A stretch of 32,674 nucleotides of DNA, from NCBI RefSeq assembly GCF_019263595.1, contig NZ_JADQDD010000030.1, positions 1 to 32,674 of the forward strand, read 5' to 3'. Under the pieces are notes generated by a model. The model made no database searches. It was not told the DNA's origin and worked only from the letters and a program-made list of their open reading frames with translations. This DNA comes from Pseudonocardia sp. KRD291 (GTDB lineage Bacteria > Actinomycetota > Actinomycetes > Mycobacteriales > Pseudonocardiaceae). This document shows, in pieces, positions 26,778 through 32,674 of this stretch (position 1 is the stretch's first letter; each line of letters begins with the position of its first letter). A program made the position numbers and the translations under genes.

Positions 26778-27860
26778 TCACAGCACCATCAGCAGACCGG
26801 CCCCGAGTAGACCGCCGGCGACGGCGAGTGCGCCCGTCGCGGCCGTGGCCCTCCAGCCCAGGGCGCGACCGACCATCACGATCCCGGGCAGGCTCACCAC
26901 CGGCAGTGTGACCAGCAGGGCACCGACCGGTCCGGCGGCGACGCCCGCGATGGCCAGGCCCTGCAGGATCGGGATCTCGCCTGCGGTGGGTATGACCACC
27001 GCGGTTCCGACCACGGCGGCGAGCACCACGATCAGCAGTCCCGAGCCCGAAGCGGCGTCGAGCGGGAACAACCACCCGCGGAACGCCCCGACCAGCAGCA
27101 CGATGATCAGGTACTCGGGAACGATGACCAGCGCCAGACGGGCGAGGGAACGGCCGAAGCGCGCCGGTGCCCGGCGGAGCCAGTCCGGGTCGGCGGTCTC
27201 CCCCCGCGCCTGTGCGGCGACTCCCGGCGGGGCGTGCCGCCCCTCGGTCAGACGCGCGACCAGTGCGGCGCCGCCGACGACGACCACCAGCCCGACGACC
27301 AGCCGGGTCGCCGTCCACTCCCACGGCGCGACGAGGAGCAGGAAGACCAGTACCGCCGGGTTGAGCAGGGGGTTACCCAGCCAGTACGCGATGGCCGCGG
27401 CGCTGGAGACGCCCGAGCGACGCAGCGAGACCACCACCGGGGCCGTACAGCAGGTACACATCATCGACGGCGTACTGCCCAGCCCGCCCGCGACCGCGCT
27501 GGCGATCCGCCCTCGGCGGTTGAGCAGCCGCACCATCCACCCCGGGGGTATCAGCGACTGCAACGCGGCACTGATCAGCAGTGCGGCGACCAGCGCCTTC
27601 CAGACCGCCTGACCGTAGGCGACTAGGAACGACGTGGCCGCCTGCCAGGACGGCGGGTCGCCGGGACGCACGTCCCCGACGCCGAGCACGTTTGACCCGC
27701 TCCACGTGCCGTTGCCGGCCGCGCGCAGAGCCTGACCGGTGTACGGGACCCACTTCGACCACAACAGCACGACGATGAACACCACGGCGGTGATCGTCAC
27801 GCCCGTCACGGCCGCTACCCGGGTCCTCGATGGCTCCGGGGTCGGCGACGTCGTGGACAC
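26778..27860 (-). CDS. Permease of the ArsP/UPF0718 family
   Basis: 360 aa with about 9-10 membrane helices. The N-terminal half carries the cysteine cluster S-M-M-C-T-C-C-T-A-P-V (Cys 135, 137, 138), followed by Y-W-L-G-N-P-L-L-N-P-A-V. The C-terminal half has I-P-T-A-G-E-I-P-I-L-Q-G. These two parts mark the ArsP/DUF318 permeases, some of which export trivalent organoarsenicals through the paired cysteines. There is no arsR or other ars gene nearby, so the substrate is uncertain. The GTG start has no ribosome site but has TAGCCT 7 nt upstream. Confidence 0.8.
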   Translation of the reverse strand: MSTTSPTPEPSRTRVAAVTGVTITAVVFIVVLLWSKWVPYTGQALRAAGNGTWSGSNVLGVGDVRPGDPPSWQAATSFLVAYGQAVWKALVAALLISAALQSLIPPGWMVRLLNRRGRIASAVAGGLGSTPSMMCTCCTAPVVVSLRRSGVSSAAAIAYWLGNPLLNPAVLVFLLLVAPWEWTATRLVVGLVVVVGGAALVARLTEGRHAPPGVAAQARGETADPDWLRRAPARFGRSLARLALVIVPEYLIIVLLVGAFRGWLFPLDAASGSGLLIVVLAAVVGTAVVIPTAGEIPILQGLAIAGVAAGPVGALLVTLPVVSLPGIVMVGRALGWRATAATGALAVAGGLLGAGLLMVL

Positions 27861-27960: not shown

Positions 27961-28974
27961 TCAGCGGGTTCGCGCGTCCCACCAGTCGAGGACCCGCGTT
28001 CCGGACAGGGTCAGCCACTTCGACGGTTCCCCGGCCGCGACGTCGACCTCGAACCACACCCGGCCGGGGTGACGGCGAGCCTGCAGCCAGGTGCCGTCCG
28101 GTTGCCGGGCAGCACGGACGAGCTCGATCGCCTCCGCCAGCCGCGGATCTGGCGCCGTGCCGTCGGCCAGCGCGGCGTCGCGGAAGTACTCGGCCGCGTT
28201 GAGCACGTCGTAGAACCAGCGGAACGGGTACGCGAACCGCCCGACCCACGGTGCCAGCGGTTCACCCGTCGACAGACGGCGGAAGAGCCCTCGCTCCAGC
28301 AGGTACTCCTCGCCGGAGCGCCGCGCGGCGCGGGTCGCCTCGGTGCCTCCGGTCGCGATGTCGTGGGCGAGGATTCCCTTGAGGGAGTTCAGCGTCGAGT
28401 GGACCGACGACCGCGTCGAGCCCTCGACCCACTCGCAGTTCCAGCCGCCGTCGGGCAGACGGTGGTCGAGGAACCAGTCGACGACACCGGTGACGTCCGC
28501 GCCGAGCCACAGACCGTTCGCGACCGTCCAGGCGTTGATGCAGCAGTCGACCTCACCGCCCCAGTACGGCAGGTCCTCGTACTCCCAGCGGCTGTTCTCG
28601 GCGAGGAGCTCGACGGTGCGGCGCCGGCGCAGGACGGCGGGATCGAGGCCCCACTCCCGCAACGAGTTGAGCGTCCAGGTCGTCGCCGTCCACGGCTGCC
28701 CGGCGTCGGGCCCGGGGCTGTCGGGCTCGGTGCCGTCGGATCGCGGGTCGTCGGGAGGGGTGCCGCGGAAGTCCGCGGGGAAGAACGCGCCGCCCGCCCA
28801 CTGCCCGTCCGGGTCCTGCAGCGCGAGGAGCCGTGCGCCGAACCCCTCGGTCGCGATCCTCGCCCGCGTCGCCTCCCACACCTCGGGTGGTTCGCGCAGG
28901 AGGTCGCGCTCCACCTGCCAGCGCAGGGCCGGATCGGAGTCACGGAGCCAGGTGAGGAGCTGCTCGGTCACCAC
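27961..28974 (-). CDS. Half-length squalene-cyclase/prenyltransferase-fold protein
   Basis: 337 aa alpha-barrel-like protein with repeats resembling QW motifs: A-L-Q-D-P-D-G-Q-W-A-G-G near residue 50, H-R-L-P-D-G-G-W-N-C-E-W near 170, and R-Q-P-D-G-T-W near 292. No D-x-D-D catalytic acid motif is seen, and the length is about half that of squalene-hopene cyclase. Terpene cyclisation is therefore unlikely and a binding role is possible. C-C-I-N-A-W near 145 is notable. The GTG at 28974 is 4 bp after the stop of the TPR-like gene (GTG 28971 is an alternative), so it is the last gene of the tight minus-strand run that begins with prcB. Confidence 0.7.
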   Translation of the reverse strand: MVTEQLLTWLRDSDPALRWQVERDLLREPPEVWEATRARIATEGFGARLLALQDPDGQWAGGAFFPADFRGTPPDDPRSDGTEPDSPGPDAGQPWTATTWTLNSLREWGLDPAVLRRRRTVELLAENSRWEYEDLPYWGGEVDCCINAWTVANGLWLGADVTGVVDWFLDHRLPDGGWNCEWVEGSTRSSVHSTLNSLKGILAHDIATGGTEATRAARRSGEEYLLERGLFRRLSTGEPLAPWVGRFAYPFRWFYDVLNAAEYFRDAALADGTAPDPRLAEAIELVRAARQPDGTWLQARRHPGRVWFEVDVAAGEPSKWLTLSGTRVLDWWDARTR

Positions 28975-28978
28975 GGTG

Positions 28979-29446
28979 TCACCCGTCGGTCGTCTCGGCG
29001 AGGCGGGCCGCGCACCGTGTGATGCCGTCGCGGATCATCCGGCCGTAGCCGTCGTCGCCCAGCGTGCCGATCGCCTCCCGCGCCCGGTCCAGATGCTCGC
29101 CGGCGCGGTCCCGGTCACCGAGCCGGCGGTAGACGTCGGCGAGGTTCAGGTGCAGCGAGGGGTAGAACCCGGCCAGGGCGAGCGACGGATGGTGCTCCTC
29201 GGCCCGTCCGGGACCGATCTGGTCGGCGGCCTCCAGCGCGAGCAGGTCCCAGCGGAGCTCGTCGGCGACGTCGGCCTGCACGTCCGCTGCGTGATGGGCC
29301 AGCACACAGCGGTGGAACGGGTCCGCGGCCGGCCCGATCTCCTCCCAGATCGCGGAGAACCGCTCCCTCGCCGTGGCGGTGTGCCCGCCCTGGGAAAGCT
29401 CGATCGCGGCGGCGATCTCGGTCATGACAGCGTCCTGGTCGGTCAT
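28979..29446 (-). CDS. TPR-like helical protein, unknown function
   Basis: 155 aa, all helical in appearance. A-R-E-R-F-S-A-I-W-E-E-I-G near residue 26, H-R-C-V-L-A-H-H-A-A-D-V-Q near 45 and L-H-L-N-L-A-D-V-Y-R-R-L-G-D-R-D-R-A-G near 97 are TPR-like; the last is a clear repeat. Probably a cytoplasmic protein-interaction module. The ATG overlaps the stop of the upstream SUMF1-like gene by 4 bp (ATGA), so it is translationally coupled. I do not know a characterised relative. Confidence 0.65.
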   Translation of the reverse strand: MTDQDAVMTEIAAAIELSQGGHTATARERFSAIWEEIGPAADPFHRCVLAHHAADVQADVADELRWDLLALEAADQIGPGRAEEHHPSLALAGFYPSLHLNLADVYRRLGDRDRAGEHLDRAREAIGTLGDDGYGRMIRDGITRCAARLAETTDG

Positions 29447-30171
29447 CCTCGGCGCTCCTCACCTCGATGGGCGCCGACCGTAGGCCCCGGCACCGACAGT
29501 TCCGAGGGCCCGAGCGCGACGCGGAACCCGACGTCGTCGAGGCGCAGGGTCGGGTGGCTGCGTCGGCGCACCGACGCGCGGCAGCTCCAGTGCTCGTCGA
29601 ACCAGCCACCGCCGCGCAGGACGCGGTAGGTGCCGTAGACCTCCGGGTCGTAGAGGTCCCAGCACCACTCCCAGACGTTGCCCAGGGTGTCGTGCAGCCC
29701 CCAGCTGTTCGGCTGCCGGCCGCCGACGTCGTGGATGCGTTCCCCGGAGTTGGCCCGGTGCCAGGCGATGTCGTCGAGGGGGCCGTAGCGCGGCCCGTCC
29801 GTGCCTGCGCGGCAGGCGTGTTCCCACTCGGCCTCGGTGAGCAGGCGGTATCCGGCGGCGGTGCGGTCCCAGGTGACGTCCTCGCCGTGCACCCGATACA
29901 CCGGGCTCAGGCCGGTCCGCTCGGACAACGCGTTGCAGAACCTGACCGCGTCCCACCACGACACGCTCTCGACGGGCAGCCGTGCACCTCTCGCGATGCC
30001 CGGGTCGTCACCGGTGATCGCGGTGTACAGCTCCCGCGTGACGGGATGGACGGCGACCCGGTGAGCGGCGAGGTCGACGCGCCAGCTGCGGCGGGTCCGC
30101 CGGTCCGAGAGTGTCACCCTGCCGGCCGGGACGGCCACGGTCTCGGGTCCCCGCCGGCCCCCCATGATCAT
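29443..30171 (-). CDS. SUMF1/FGE-fold protein lacking the catalytic cysteine pair
   Basis: 242 aa with the formylglycine-generating-enzyme fold. P-V-E-S-V-S-W-W-D-A-V-R-F-C-N-A-L near residue 66, G-Y-R-L-L-T-E-A-E-W-E-H-A-C near 106, W-G-L-H-D-T-L-G-N-V-W-E-W near 157 and L-R-G-G-G-W near 185 are conserved. In true FGE the region after G-G-S-W has two catalytic cysteines (C-x4-C) for copper and oxygen chemistry. Here it reads W-F-D-E-H-W-S-C-R-A-S-V, with one misplaced Cys, so sulfatase activation is unlikely; no sulfatase gene is nearby. The start overlaps the phosphatase stop (ATGA). ATG 30165 is an alternative start. Confidence 0.82.
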   Translation of the reverse strand: MIMGGRRGPETVAVPAGRVTLSDRRTRRSWRVDLAAHRVAVHPVTRELYTAITGDDPGIARGARLPVESVSWWDAVRFCNALSERTGLSPVYRVHGEDVTWDRTAAGYRLLTEAEWEHACRAGTDGPRYGPLDDIAWHRANSGERIHDVGGRQPNSWGLHDTLGNVWEWCWDLYDPEVYGTYRVLRGGGWFDEHWSCRASVRRRSHPTLRLDDVGFRVALGPSELSVPGPTVGAHRGEERRG

Positions 30172-30656
30172 GCAAGGTCATCGACCCGGCGACGGTGCTC
30201 GGCGAACCACGCGACCCAGCGGCGCTGCCCGCGGGTCTCCACCGCGCGGGAGCGGTAGTTGCGGCGGGTCCAGGCGACGGCGTCGTCGGGCGGGTGCCCG
30301 GCGATCACGGCCATGCACGCGATCACGGTCCCGGTCCGGCCGACACCGCCGCCGCACGCGACCTCGACCCGGTGGCCGGCGCGGGCCAGGTCGTGGGCGC
30401 GCACGATCGCGGCGGCGGCCCGCCGGGGGTCGCGCGGCGTGCGGAAGTCCGGCCAGTCGACCCACTCGGCGGGCCAGTCCGGCAGCCACGGGGTGGTGCG
30501 CCGGAGCAGCGTCCGACGCCCCCGGTCCGGTGGCCTGCCGGGGTAGAGGCCGAACTGCGGTGCCGGCCCCTCGGGCAGCGGGTCCCGACGTCCCCGGCCG
30601 CGCACGAGCGTGCCGTCGGGGAGCCGGATCGCCCCGGCGAGCGGGAGCTCGCTCAT
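30168..30656 (-). CDS. Protein-tyrosine/dual-specificity phosphatase-like protein
   Basis: 162 aa. The active-site P-loop C-G-G-G-V-G-R-T-G-T (Cys 101, Arg 107) matches C-x5-R-T/S. The residue before the Cys is Ala instead of the usual His. A general acid could be D70 in V-D-W-P-D-F. Y-R-S-R-A-V-E-T near 134 resembles the actinobacterial PTP-like group. The ATG at 30656 has GGAGGG close upstream and lies 23 bp after the prcB stop. Its own stop overlaps the SUMF1-like start by 4 bp. The substrate, protein or small phosphate ester, is unknown. Confidence 0.78.
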   Translation of the reverse strand: MSELPLAGAIRLPDGTLVRGRGRRDPLPEGPAPQFGLYPGRPPDRGRRTLLRRTTPWLPDWPAEWVDWPDFRTPRDPRRAAAAIVRAHDLARAGHRVEVACGGGVGRTGTVIACMAVIAGHPPDDAVAWTRRNYRSRAVETRGQRRWVAWFAEHRRRVDDLA

Positions 30657-30679
30657 CGCCCTCCGAATCGGCGGGCCGG

Positions 30680-31483
30680 TCAGCCGCCGGGACGCCGTCG
30701 CCGCTCGGCGAGCATCCGCTCGGTGGCGGCGCGGATCTCGTCGTCCGGGACGGTCTCGGTGCCCGCGGCCGTCACCAGGATGATGTTCGGGAACAGGGCC
30801 CTGGTCAGGTCCGGACCGGCCGTGGCGGAGTCGTCGTCGGCGGCGTCCCACAGCGCGTTGACCGCGGCCGAGACCGCGCCCGCGCGGTCCGCGTCGGGGG
30901 AGTGGCGCTTCTTCAGCGCGCCCTTCGCGAACACCGAGCCGGAGCCGATCGACTCGTAGCCCTGACGGTCGCGCACCGCGTCCCCGCTCGCGTCGAAGGA
31001 CACGATCCGGAACGCCTGGGCCGGGTCCGGCTCCAGCGGGTCGTAGCCGACGAACAGCGGGATCGCGACGAAGCCCTGCATCGCGGCGGGCAGGTTCTCC
31101 CGGACGATCGTCGAGAGCCGCCGGGTCTTGCCGCCCAGGCTGATCGGGGCGCCCTCGATCTTCTCGTACTGCTCGACTTCGGCGGCGAACATCGTCAGCA
31201 TCGACAGCGCGTGCCCGACCGAGCCGGCGAAACCGGCGGCGGAGAAGTCGTCGACGACCAGGATCTTCTCCAGGTCCTTCTGCGCGATCTCGTTGCCCTG
31301 CGTGGCGCGGCGGTCACCGGCGAGCAGGACGCCGTCGGCGAAGTGCAGCGCGACGATCGTGGTGCCGTGCGGGGCGCGCAGGTCCGCGCCCACCCGAAGC
31401 GACGGGTCGCGGGGGAGCGCGCCGGGCAGCATCTGCGGCGCGTGCGCACGCAGGTACTCGACGAACGAGGTGTCACCGATCAT
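30680..31483 (-). CDS. prcB: Proteasome subunit beta
   Basis: Ntn-hydrolase beta subunit of the 20S proteasome. A 40-residue propeptide with [15 protein letters not shown] resembles the mycobacterial PrcB propeptide and ends in P-H-G before the catalytic Thr 41 (T-T-I-V-A-L). The catalytic partners are present: Asp in A-G-D-R-R and Lys in [14 protein letters not shown] and [14 protein letters not shown] match PrcB. At 267 aa it is complete. The ATG has no ribosome site of its own and overlaps the stop of an 8-codon frame. prcA, which normally follows, is absent; a phosphatase-like gene follows after 23 bp. Confidence 0.93.
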
Positions 31484-31506: not shown

Positions 31507-31626
31507 CGCGGGCACTTCCTTCGGGTCGGGGAGTCGCCACCCGATCCTGCCCGCACACCCCTCCGGGGTCCAGCCACGGACCGTCCCCGGTGCGGACGGG
31601 GTCGCGGACCTTGCACACTCGTGGGC

Positions 31627-32674
31627 GTGACGCAGTCGAGTGGGCCCCGCCGACGGGCCGAGGAATTCTGTACGCGGTTCGGGTTGCGGGTACCGGTGGT
31701 GTCCTCGCCGATGGCCGGTGCCTGCCCGCCGGAGCTGGCGGTCGCCGTCGCCGAGGCAGGCGGGATGGGTGCGGCCGGGGTACTGCAGGACTCGCCCGAG
31801 CGGATCACCGACTGGATGCGCCGCTTCCGTGCGGGCTCCTCCGGTGCGGTGCAGCTCAACCTCTGGATCCCCGACCCGCCGGACGACGACCCGTCCCGGA
31901 TCGAGGCCGCCTCCCGGTTCCTGGACGGCCTGGGCACCGCGGGCGAGGCCGGCGGCGCGGCACCGGACTTCGACGAGCAGTGCGCCGCGATGCTCGCCGC
32001 CCGCCCCACCGCCGTCTCCTCGATCATGGGCCTCTACGAGCCCGGCTACGTCCGCGCGCTGCACGAGGCCGGCATCGCCTGGTTCGCCTGCGCCACGACC
32101 CTCGACGACGCGCTCGCCGCCCAGGATGCCGGCGCGGACGCCGTCGTCGCGCAGGGGATGGAGGCCGGCGGGCACCGCGGCAGCGTGCACCCGGCCGCCG
32201 CCGAGTCCACAGAGGTCGGACTGTTCGCACTGCTCCCGCGCCTGGCCGACCACCTGCGGGTACCGATCGTCGCCGCCGGCGGGATCGCCGACGGGCGCGG
32301 GGTCGCCGCCGCGCTCACCCTCGGCGCCAGCGCGGTCCAGGTCGGGACGGCGTTGCTGCGCGCCCCCGAGACCGGCATCGCGAAGGACTGGTCCGCGGCG
32401 CTGGACGGCCTCGCCCCGGAGGCGACGGTGACCACCCGCGCCTACTCCGGACGCCTCGGGCGCGCCGCGCCGTCGGAGTACGTCCTGGCCTGGCGTGAGC
32501 CCGGCGCCCCCGTCCCCGCGCCGTACCCGCACCAGCGCCGCCTCGTCGCCCGCTACCGGGCGGGGGAGCCGGGTCGGGTGGACCGGGTCAACCGGTGGGC
32601 CGGGCAGAGCGCGGCCCTGGCCGTCGAGGAGCCGGCGGGCGAGATCGTCGCCCGGATGTGGCGGGAGGCCTCGG
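31627..32674 (+). CDS. Nitronate monooxygenase (2-nitropropane dioxygenase-like), 3' end cut by window
   Basis: FMN-dependent TIM-barrel enzyme that oxidises alkyl nitronates such as propionate 3-nitronate. S-S-P-M-A-G-A near residue 26 is the FMN-side motif. [10 protein letters not shown] holds the catalytic His 183. [12 protein letters not shown] followed by [12 protein letters not shown] (about 218-243) is the phosphate-binding region. The frame is open to the window edge with 349 codons seen, close to the usual length. GTG at 31621 is also in frame, and neither start has a clear ribosome site. It is divergent from the prcB operon across about 120-145 bp. Confidence 0.9.

Follow-up and report, generated by a model that had tools for sequence, protein, structure and literature searches.

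What would a bacterial cell do with a catalytic proteasome subunit encoded apart from the other proteasome genes? The question is raised by a stretch of DNA from Pseudonocardia sp. KRD291 (contig NZ_JADQDD010000030.1; all 32,674 nucleotides of the analysed stretch are referred to here as the window), in which a gene for a 20S proteasome beta subunit, here named prcB2, heads a row of closely spaced genes with no alpha-subunit gene, prcA, beside it. The initial annotation left two answers open, a second beta gene whose alpha partner is encoded at a distance or a beta-only assembly with dedicated partners. We think it somewhat probable that PrcB2 is an alternative catalytic 20S beta subunit of the type of SalI, a resistance-type subunit described below, which would join PrcA, would have a narrowed S1 pocket and would tolerate proteasome inhibitors. 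The published work cited here by PMC number is represented by excerpts of the papers, and genes named from ORF translations were identified by eye wherever no family search is given for them.

The protein was first described as a complete PrcB from its propeptide and its catalytic Thr/Asp/Lys, and both family models and a reading of the residues uphold this. PrcB2 scored 288.2 bits against NCBIfam TIGR03690 (20S_bact_beta equivalog, cut-off 191.9) and 109 bits against Pfam PF00227. The propeptide comprises residues 1-40 and retains its 15-letter central box, and the mature part starts at Thr41 (T1) after the autocleavage site HG↓TT (HG↓TTIVAL), with Thr1, Asp17 and Lys33 all present. The ratio of non-synonymous to synonymous substitution rates (dN/dS) of prcB2 was 0.24, 0.23 and 0.44 in comparison with genomes G036, G203 and G001, values well under 1, indicating that the protein is under constraint.

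When the whole assembly was searched with PF00227, three genes were recovered, namely prcB2 and, on contig C257, a prcB with a prcA. Two of the three are thus beta genes and one is an alpha gene; no second alpha gene such as that of a Rhodococcus-type second operon was found. On C257, pup, prcB and prcA stand in the usual order, and since this canonical set lies on another contig, the gene in the window is a second, orphan beta subunit (the product of the C257 gene is called PrcB1 below). With the assembly 96.5% complete, the best estimate is two beta genes to one alpha gene; copies of PrcA were counted by family search in this genome (G000) alone. Thus, prcB2 indeed has no adjoining prcA, the genome search suggested in the initial annotation found both a prcA and another prcB, with pup in front, and at the level of gene content the pairing of a second beta gene with a distant alpha subunit is supported.

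Members of the prcB2 clade were found in 13 of 62 genomes of the genus (G000, G203, G036, G001, G187, G027, G037, G199, G120, G014, G002, G194 and G186; three of the 13 loci were read in named records carrying an identical PrcB2), and two further genomes, G015 and G192, hold relatives that are 62-65% identical to prcB2 and lie in a different context. Thr1, Asp17 and Lys33 are intact in all 15 of these orphans. A gene of the nitronate monooxygenase (NMO) family (PF03060) is divergent from prcB2 in every one of the 13 loci, the projected starts lying 55-189 bp apart, and neither prcA nor pup was matched in any of the 13 stretches (7-33 kb). The upstream regions vary in length and sequence except that TGGACC and AGGATC align in all 13, with the consensus TGGACC-17-[C/A]AGGAT oriented toward prcB2, a pair that may be a promoter-like site. 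The conserved part of the locus is prcB2 together with the divergent NMO-family gene. As a separate observation, the relatives in G015 (L040) and G192 (L260) start almost at the stop of the upstream gene, and they keep Val49 and have Tyr45. Elsewhere in the genus, the two matches of G007 are explained by a second pup-prcB-prcA set on a 3.7-kb contig (L042) and those of G030 by one split match, and G028 (94% complete) gave no match to prcB.

Orphan and canonical genes were compared at 183 distinct prcB loci (20 duplicates dropped), 134 with prcA adjoining and 49 without, where a gene was called orphan if no prcA match above 90 bits lay within 1.5 kb on the same strand and at least 1.4 kb of downstream DNA was in hand; genomes with a single copy are represented through the loci returned by the searches. 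Residue 49 of the mature protein is Ala at 133 of the 134 prcA-adjacent loci and Val at 48 of the 49 loci without prcA, counts drawn from non-independent loci, many of them from the same genera. The one orphan without Val49, L116, has also lost Asp17 and Lys33, and the 48 rows with Val49 include L115. Residue 49 tells canonical and orphan prcB apart. Residue 45 in the Val49 orphans is Phe in 44, Tyr in two, and Met and Leu in one each, and residue 31 is Leu throughout the two orphan clades defined below (15/15 and 31/31), as it is in 4 of the 134 canonical genes. In a scan of 227 columns, only positions 31, 45 and 49 carried a residue shared by the two orphan clades but uncommon among the canonical genes, the rule being that the commonest residue exceed 80% in each clade (15 and 31 rows) and stay below 35% in the 134 canonical genes; L115, L116 and SalI were left out. 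In the structure of the beta5 subunit, Val31, Met35, Met45 and the 46-49 loop lie at or beside the S1 pocket (excerpt of PMC11452676), and in human beta5 the changes Ala49Val and Ala49Thr and changes of Met45 accompany resistance to bortezomib, carfilzomib or marizomib (excerpt of PMC9000344).

The same signature recurs outside the genus. At the level of the class, 11 of 394 genomes, this one included, have two prcB matches (counted by eye), and in nine of the other ten the orphan is intact, whereas in G327 it is degraded. Among 11 multi-copy genomes from other genera of the Pseudonocardiaceae, one or two orphans are present in ten, and G068 carries a tandem prcB pair around one prcA. In that pair (L170, L178), the pup-linked copy has Ile45 and Val49, and the other copy is divergent and has Ala49. 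In Streptomyces, the named loci show prcB with neither prcA nor pup in the stretch read, prcA being absent over 10 kb or, for L110, over its 6.8-kb contig. At seven of the Streptomyces orphan loci the neighbourhood is similar, with prcB mostly placed after a membrane-protein-like gene. The match of one Streptomyces orphan, L115, is broken in two pieces, and L116, represented again as L214, is the gene without Asp17 and Lys33, so that an orphan prcB seems to be dispensable in some Streptomyces strains.

In the trees, one of which was a careful search and all others quick searches, the Pseudonocardia orphans with the relatives from G015 and G192 formed one clade on the Pseudonocardiaceae side (SH-aLRT or bootstrap support of 99-100), so the expectation raised earlier that this PrcB might form a clade of its own was borne out. 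The other orphans formed a second group placed elsewhere, with branch support of 93 in one tree and 91/93 in the careful tree; its members come from Streptomyces (L096, L099-L101, L103-L105, L107, L108, L110 and L111) and from other Pseudonocardiaceae genera (L177, L179-L189), together with L199, L211 and L213. A single origin of all orphan genes was rejected by approximately unbiased (AU) tests of the one-clade tree, with p of 0.0074 for 109 rows (the long branches L170, L178, L181 and L187 left out) and p of 0.0024 for 64 rows after removal of pocket columns 20, 31, 35, 45, 49 and 53, values to be read with the reservation that the AU test presumes groups named before the tree is seen and that these were named afterwards. 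The S1 signature therefore arose at least twice, and the pocket changes were not simply inherited once.

Residues 45 and 49 of the signature were also seen in a further family, where three of 354 genomes had two prcB matches (counted by eye). One of these, G886, we take to be Salinispora tropica, and its second prcB we take to be SalI. Like PrcB2, this is the product of a second beta gene and has Phe45, Val49 and intact Thr1, Asp17 and Lys33. Residue 31 is Val in SalI and Leu in PrcB2, and the contexts differ, since SalI stands beside genes resembling those of polyketide synthases and non-ribosomal peptide synthetases (PKS/NRPS; judged by eye) and PrcB2 in a conserved, ordinary locus beside the NMO gene. 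The 30 other loci returned from the same family all lie beside pup and prcA, and all have Ala49. A clade of SalI with PrcB2 was not rejected (AU p of 0.725, or 0.389 without the S1 columns), nor was one of SalI with the other orphans (p of 0.09), and the careful tree does not decide between shared and separate descent of SalI and PrcB2. SalI is described as a beta subunit from the salinosporamide cluster of S. tropica that confers 30-fold resistance (excerpt of PMC6804068) and whose residues 45 and 49 are not those of the housekeeping subunit (excerpt of PMC6449301).

Other systems resemble the arrangement in part. The second orphan clade (Streptomyces, other Pseudonocardiaceae genera and family f19) likewise lacks prcA within 1.5 kb and shares Leu31, Val49 and Phe45 (Met and Leu in one each), but is separate from PrcB2, a joint clade being rejected, and has different neighbours at the seven Streptomyces loci. 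Rhodococcus erythropolis has two beta subunits per cell, as here, but two alpha genes as well (excerpts of PMC7210456, PMC12915292 and PMC13022661), in contrast to the one alpha gene found in this genome; its cores form from one alpha type and one beta type (excerpt of PMC7210456), and according to a 2026 review, each species of the bacterial orders in question has one alpha and one beta, with R. erythropolis as the apparent sole exception (excerpt of PMC13022661). The drug-resistance mutants of human PSMB5 at Ala49 and Met45 involve the same pocket positions, but they are point mutants of the single beta5 gene and not a separate gene.

How PrcB2 might act as a SalI-type subunit can be outlined as follows. 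In the actinobacterial beta propeptide, the central box is the part through which one beta subunit contacts two alpha subunits (excerpt of PMC7210456), and since PrcB2 keeps this alpha-binding box, the simplest assembly would be one with the single PrcA; PrcB2 would combine with this only PrcA and take the place of PrcB1 in some rings or in all. The bulkier side chains at 45 and 49 would narrow the S1 pocket, and the narrowed pocket would bind natural peptidic or beta-lactone proteasome inhibitors more weakly and shift the cleavage preference, so that the cell might keep its Pup-proteasome activity under the inhibitors of competitors. Because changes at 45 and 49 are tied to drug resistance in human beta5, we infer a second form of the core, whose S1 pocket would be tighter and which would be inhibitor-tolerant, its assembly, expression and tolerance all being predictions from sequence. 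The broader proposition, that stand-alone beta subunits with Val49 and a bulky residue 45 evolved repeatedly in actinomycetes, swap into the single PrcA and so provide an inhibitor-tolerant, immunity-like proteasome outside biosynthetic clusters, is one that we put forward tentatively.

Several observations weigh against a role in tolerance or loosen its ties to the signature. By eye, there is no biosynthetic cluster around prcB2 in the 32.7-kb window, where the largest called gene encodes 558 amino acids (no search with PKS/NRPS families was made), and since prcB2 lies outside any recognisable cluster, self-resistance like that of SalI is not indicated. The relatives in G015 and G192 (HumB2) lack the alpha-binding propeptide box; L170, a prcA-adjacent gene from the G068 pair, has Val49; and Phe45 occurs in 11 of the 134 prcA-adjacent genes (Ile in 120), so residue 45 alone is not diagnostic. 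With SalI and ten further canonical rows included, a quick tree no longer placed the second orphan group on one side of a branch. For SalI itself, the excerpt of PMC6449301 speaks of a higher affinity in binding the drug, a wording that differs from that of PMC6804068. Finally, Ala49Val in yeast lowers chymotrypsin-like activity (excerpt of PMC9000344), and altered specificity may therefore be the point and tolerance a by-product. This last argument leads to the main rival explanation, a changed cleavage preference, in which PrcB2 would act like an immunoproteasome subunit whose narrowed S1 pocket alters the bonds cut under some condition, tolerance being incidental. It draws on the same pocket changes at 31, 45 and 49 and on the yeast activity just cited, and a place beside the NMO gene in 13 of 13 loci, away from a recognisable biosynthetic cluster, suits it. 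However, the residues on which the orphans converge, Val49 above all, are the known drug-resistance ones, and SalI, in the excerpts cited, is the characterised case; we regard specificity alone as rather unlikely, and a changed preference need not exclude tolerance.

The remaining explanations concern the surroundings and the fate of the gene. A neutral duplicate heading for loss would account for the presence of orphans in only 15 of the 62 genus genomes and for the degraded Streptomyces copy, L116, but PrcB2 forms a separate clade, the catalytic residues are kept in 15 of 15, dN/dS against near relatives is 0.23-0.24 and the upstream site is conserved, all of which makes such a duplicate very unlikely. 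The tight packing behind prcB2 had suggested an undescribed, co-expressed module of PrcB2, a phosphatase of the protein tyrosine phosphatase (PTP) type, a protein resembling the formylglycine-generating enzyme (FGE), a tetratricopeptide repeat (TPR)-like protein and the product of a last gene. The five open reading frames (ORFs) were confirmed on the minus strand at the positions and spacings first given, PrcB being followed by a 23-bp gap, PTP, a 4-bp overlap, FGE, a 4-bp overlap, TPR, a 4-bp gap and the last gene. All four followers are complete at one of the 13 prcB2 loci, that of this genome. In G036, a sister species whose PrcB2 is 91% identical, PTP and TPR remain, FGE has shrunk to a C-terminal match of 19 amino acids and the last gene is reduced to a short ORF that joins both its ends; in G001, TPR is the sole follower, 1.2 kb from prcB2; and none of the four was found in the other 10 stretches, which are 7.2 to 20.8 kb long. 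Homologues are scattered across the 62 genomes, TPR occurring in 42 (near prcB2 at 3 of the 13 loci), FGE in 55 (13 strong matches, the others weak family matches), PTP in 45 (adjoining prcB2, among the 13 loci, only here and in G036) and the last gene in 19, and none of the five proteins matched PADLOC at E 0.01, which removes an anti-phage defence module as a candidate. With followers absent from 10 of 13 loci and scattered across the genus, the tight packing is local to this genome, and despite the remnants in G036 and the nearby TPR gene in G001, a single system of all five is highly improbable and was rejected on synteny. The genes behind prcB2 are passengers or local additions and not a required module. 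The conserved five-gene order was thus not borne out, and the initial annotation had itself named a lack of conserved neighbours as grounds for dropping it. For the same reason, a beta-only assembly with these genes as dedicated partners is unsupported. A particle of beta subunits alone, comparable to HslV or Anbu and without need of alpha, agrees with the lack of an alpha gene next to prcB2, but PrcB2 scores as a 20S bacterial beta (288 bits) and reaches 44.7 and 38.7 bits with the HslV models, far below their cut-offs of 137 and 157.75 (the comparison used models of HslV and none of Anbu), and with the alpha-binding box retained and an alpha gene in the genome, we consider this the least probable of the explanations.

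Two of the follower families showed other associations. Homologues of FGE lie 11-13 kb from prcB2 in two genomes (G194:C1:6947196 and G186:C80:234517), and the FGE gene may belong to a wider prcB2 neighbourhood. A PTP homologue is convergent to the gene for the proteasomal ATPase ARC/Mpa, 50-100 bp apart, in five species (L255 12621-13076, L256, L257, L280 and L282), out of 39 loci read in relatives, some of which are truncated where their contig stops. Of these five species, the three that were placed in the PrcB tree cluster there. This is a weak hint of a phosphatase with a link to the proteasome, and PTP as a gene of the proteasome locus was kept as a weak lead only.

Features of the window at and around prcB2 (mature numbering for PrcB2 residues)
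Feature	Position	Strand	Evidence or remark
prcB2, orphan 20S proteasome beta subunit, 267 aa	30680..31483	-	TIGR03690, PF00227
Leu31 codon (Ile/Met in most canonical PrcB)	31271..31273	-	183-locus comparison
Phe45 codon (Ile in most canonical PrcB)	31229..31231	-	183-locus comparison
Val49 codon (Ala in canonical PrcB)	31217..31219	-	183-locus comparison
Promoter-like pair TGGACC-17 bp-CAGGAT, upstream of prcB2	31544..31572	-	kept in 13/13 upstream regions; promoter role inferred
Nitronate monooxygenase-family gene, divergent from prcB2	31621..32673, runs off window	+	PF03060, E 5.5e-53
DSP/PTP-type phosphatase, CGGGVGR (CX5R) loop	30168..30656	-	PTP-SAK 32.9 bits, cut-off 27
FGE/SUMF1-like protein	29443..30171	-	PF03781, 128 bits
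TPR-like protein	28979..29446	-	sub-threshold TPR matches (Pfam)
Last gene, repeated PDGxW motifs, fold not established	27961..28974	-	no family match

The labels first given to the followers fared unevenly. Those of a PTP-like and a SUMF1-fold protein hold, with matches above the Pfam cut-offs (PF03781 for the latter), the phosphatase exceeding those of both PTP-SAK and Y_phosphatase; for the TPR label, matches to such repeats are present, but only below threshold. The squalene-cyclase fold proposed for the last gene was not supported, as this protein has no Pfam or NCBIfam match, its best PDB profile match has an E of 0.53 and its AlphaFold model is poor (mean pLDDT 47, one model). Farther downstream on the same strand, an ArsP_1-type permease gene occupies 26778-27860 of the window, separated from the last gene by 100-151 bp according to which start is taken.

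A resistance-type beta subunit is already known in SalI; the new part is a form that stands outside a biosynthetic cluster, holds the same place throughout a clade and has evolved more than once. We found no survey of orphan or second prcB genes in the open-access literature searched, subscription papers being mostly outside the search. Of the 62 Pseudonocardia genomes, 15 carry an additional beta gene whose catalytic residues are intact, such genes also occur in several further genera of actinomycetes, and the residue that separates the two kinds of prcB is one known from drug-resistant proteasomes. Whether bacteria hold an inhibitor-tolerant proteasome in reserve can thereby be tested directly, and Val49 may serve as a marker for natural proteasome inhibitors or for organisms exposed to them. 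If the explanation is true, the orphan subunits would represent a general, immunity-like answer of actinomycetes to natural proteasome inhibitors.

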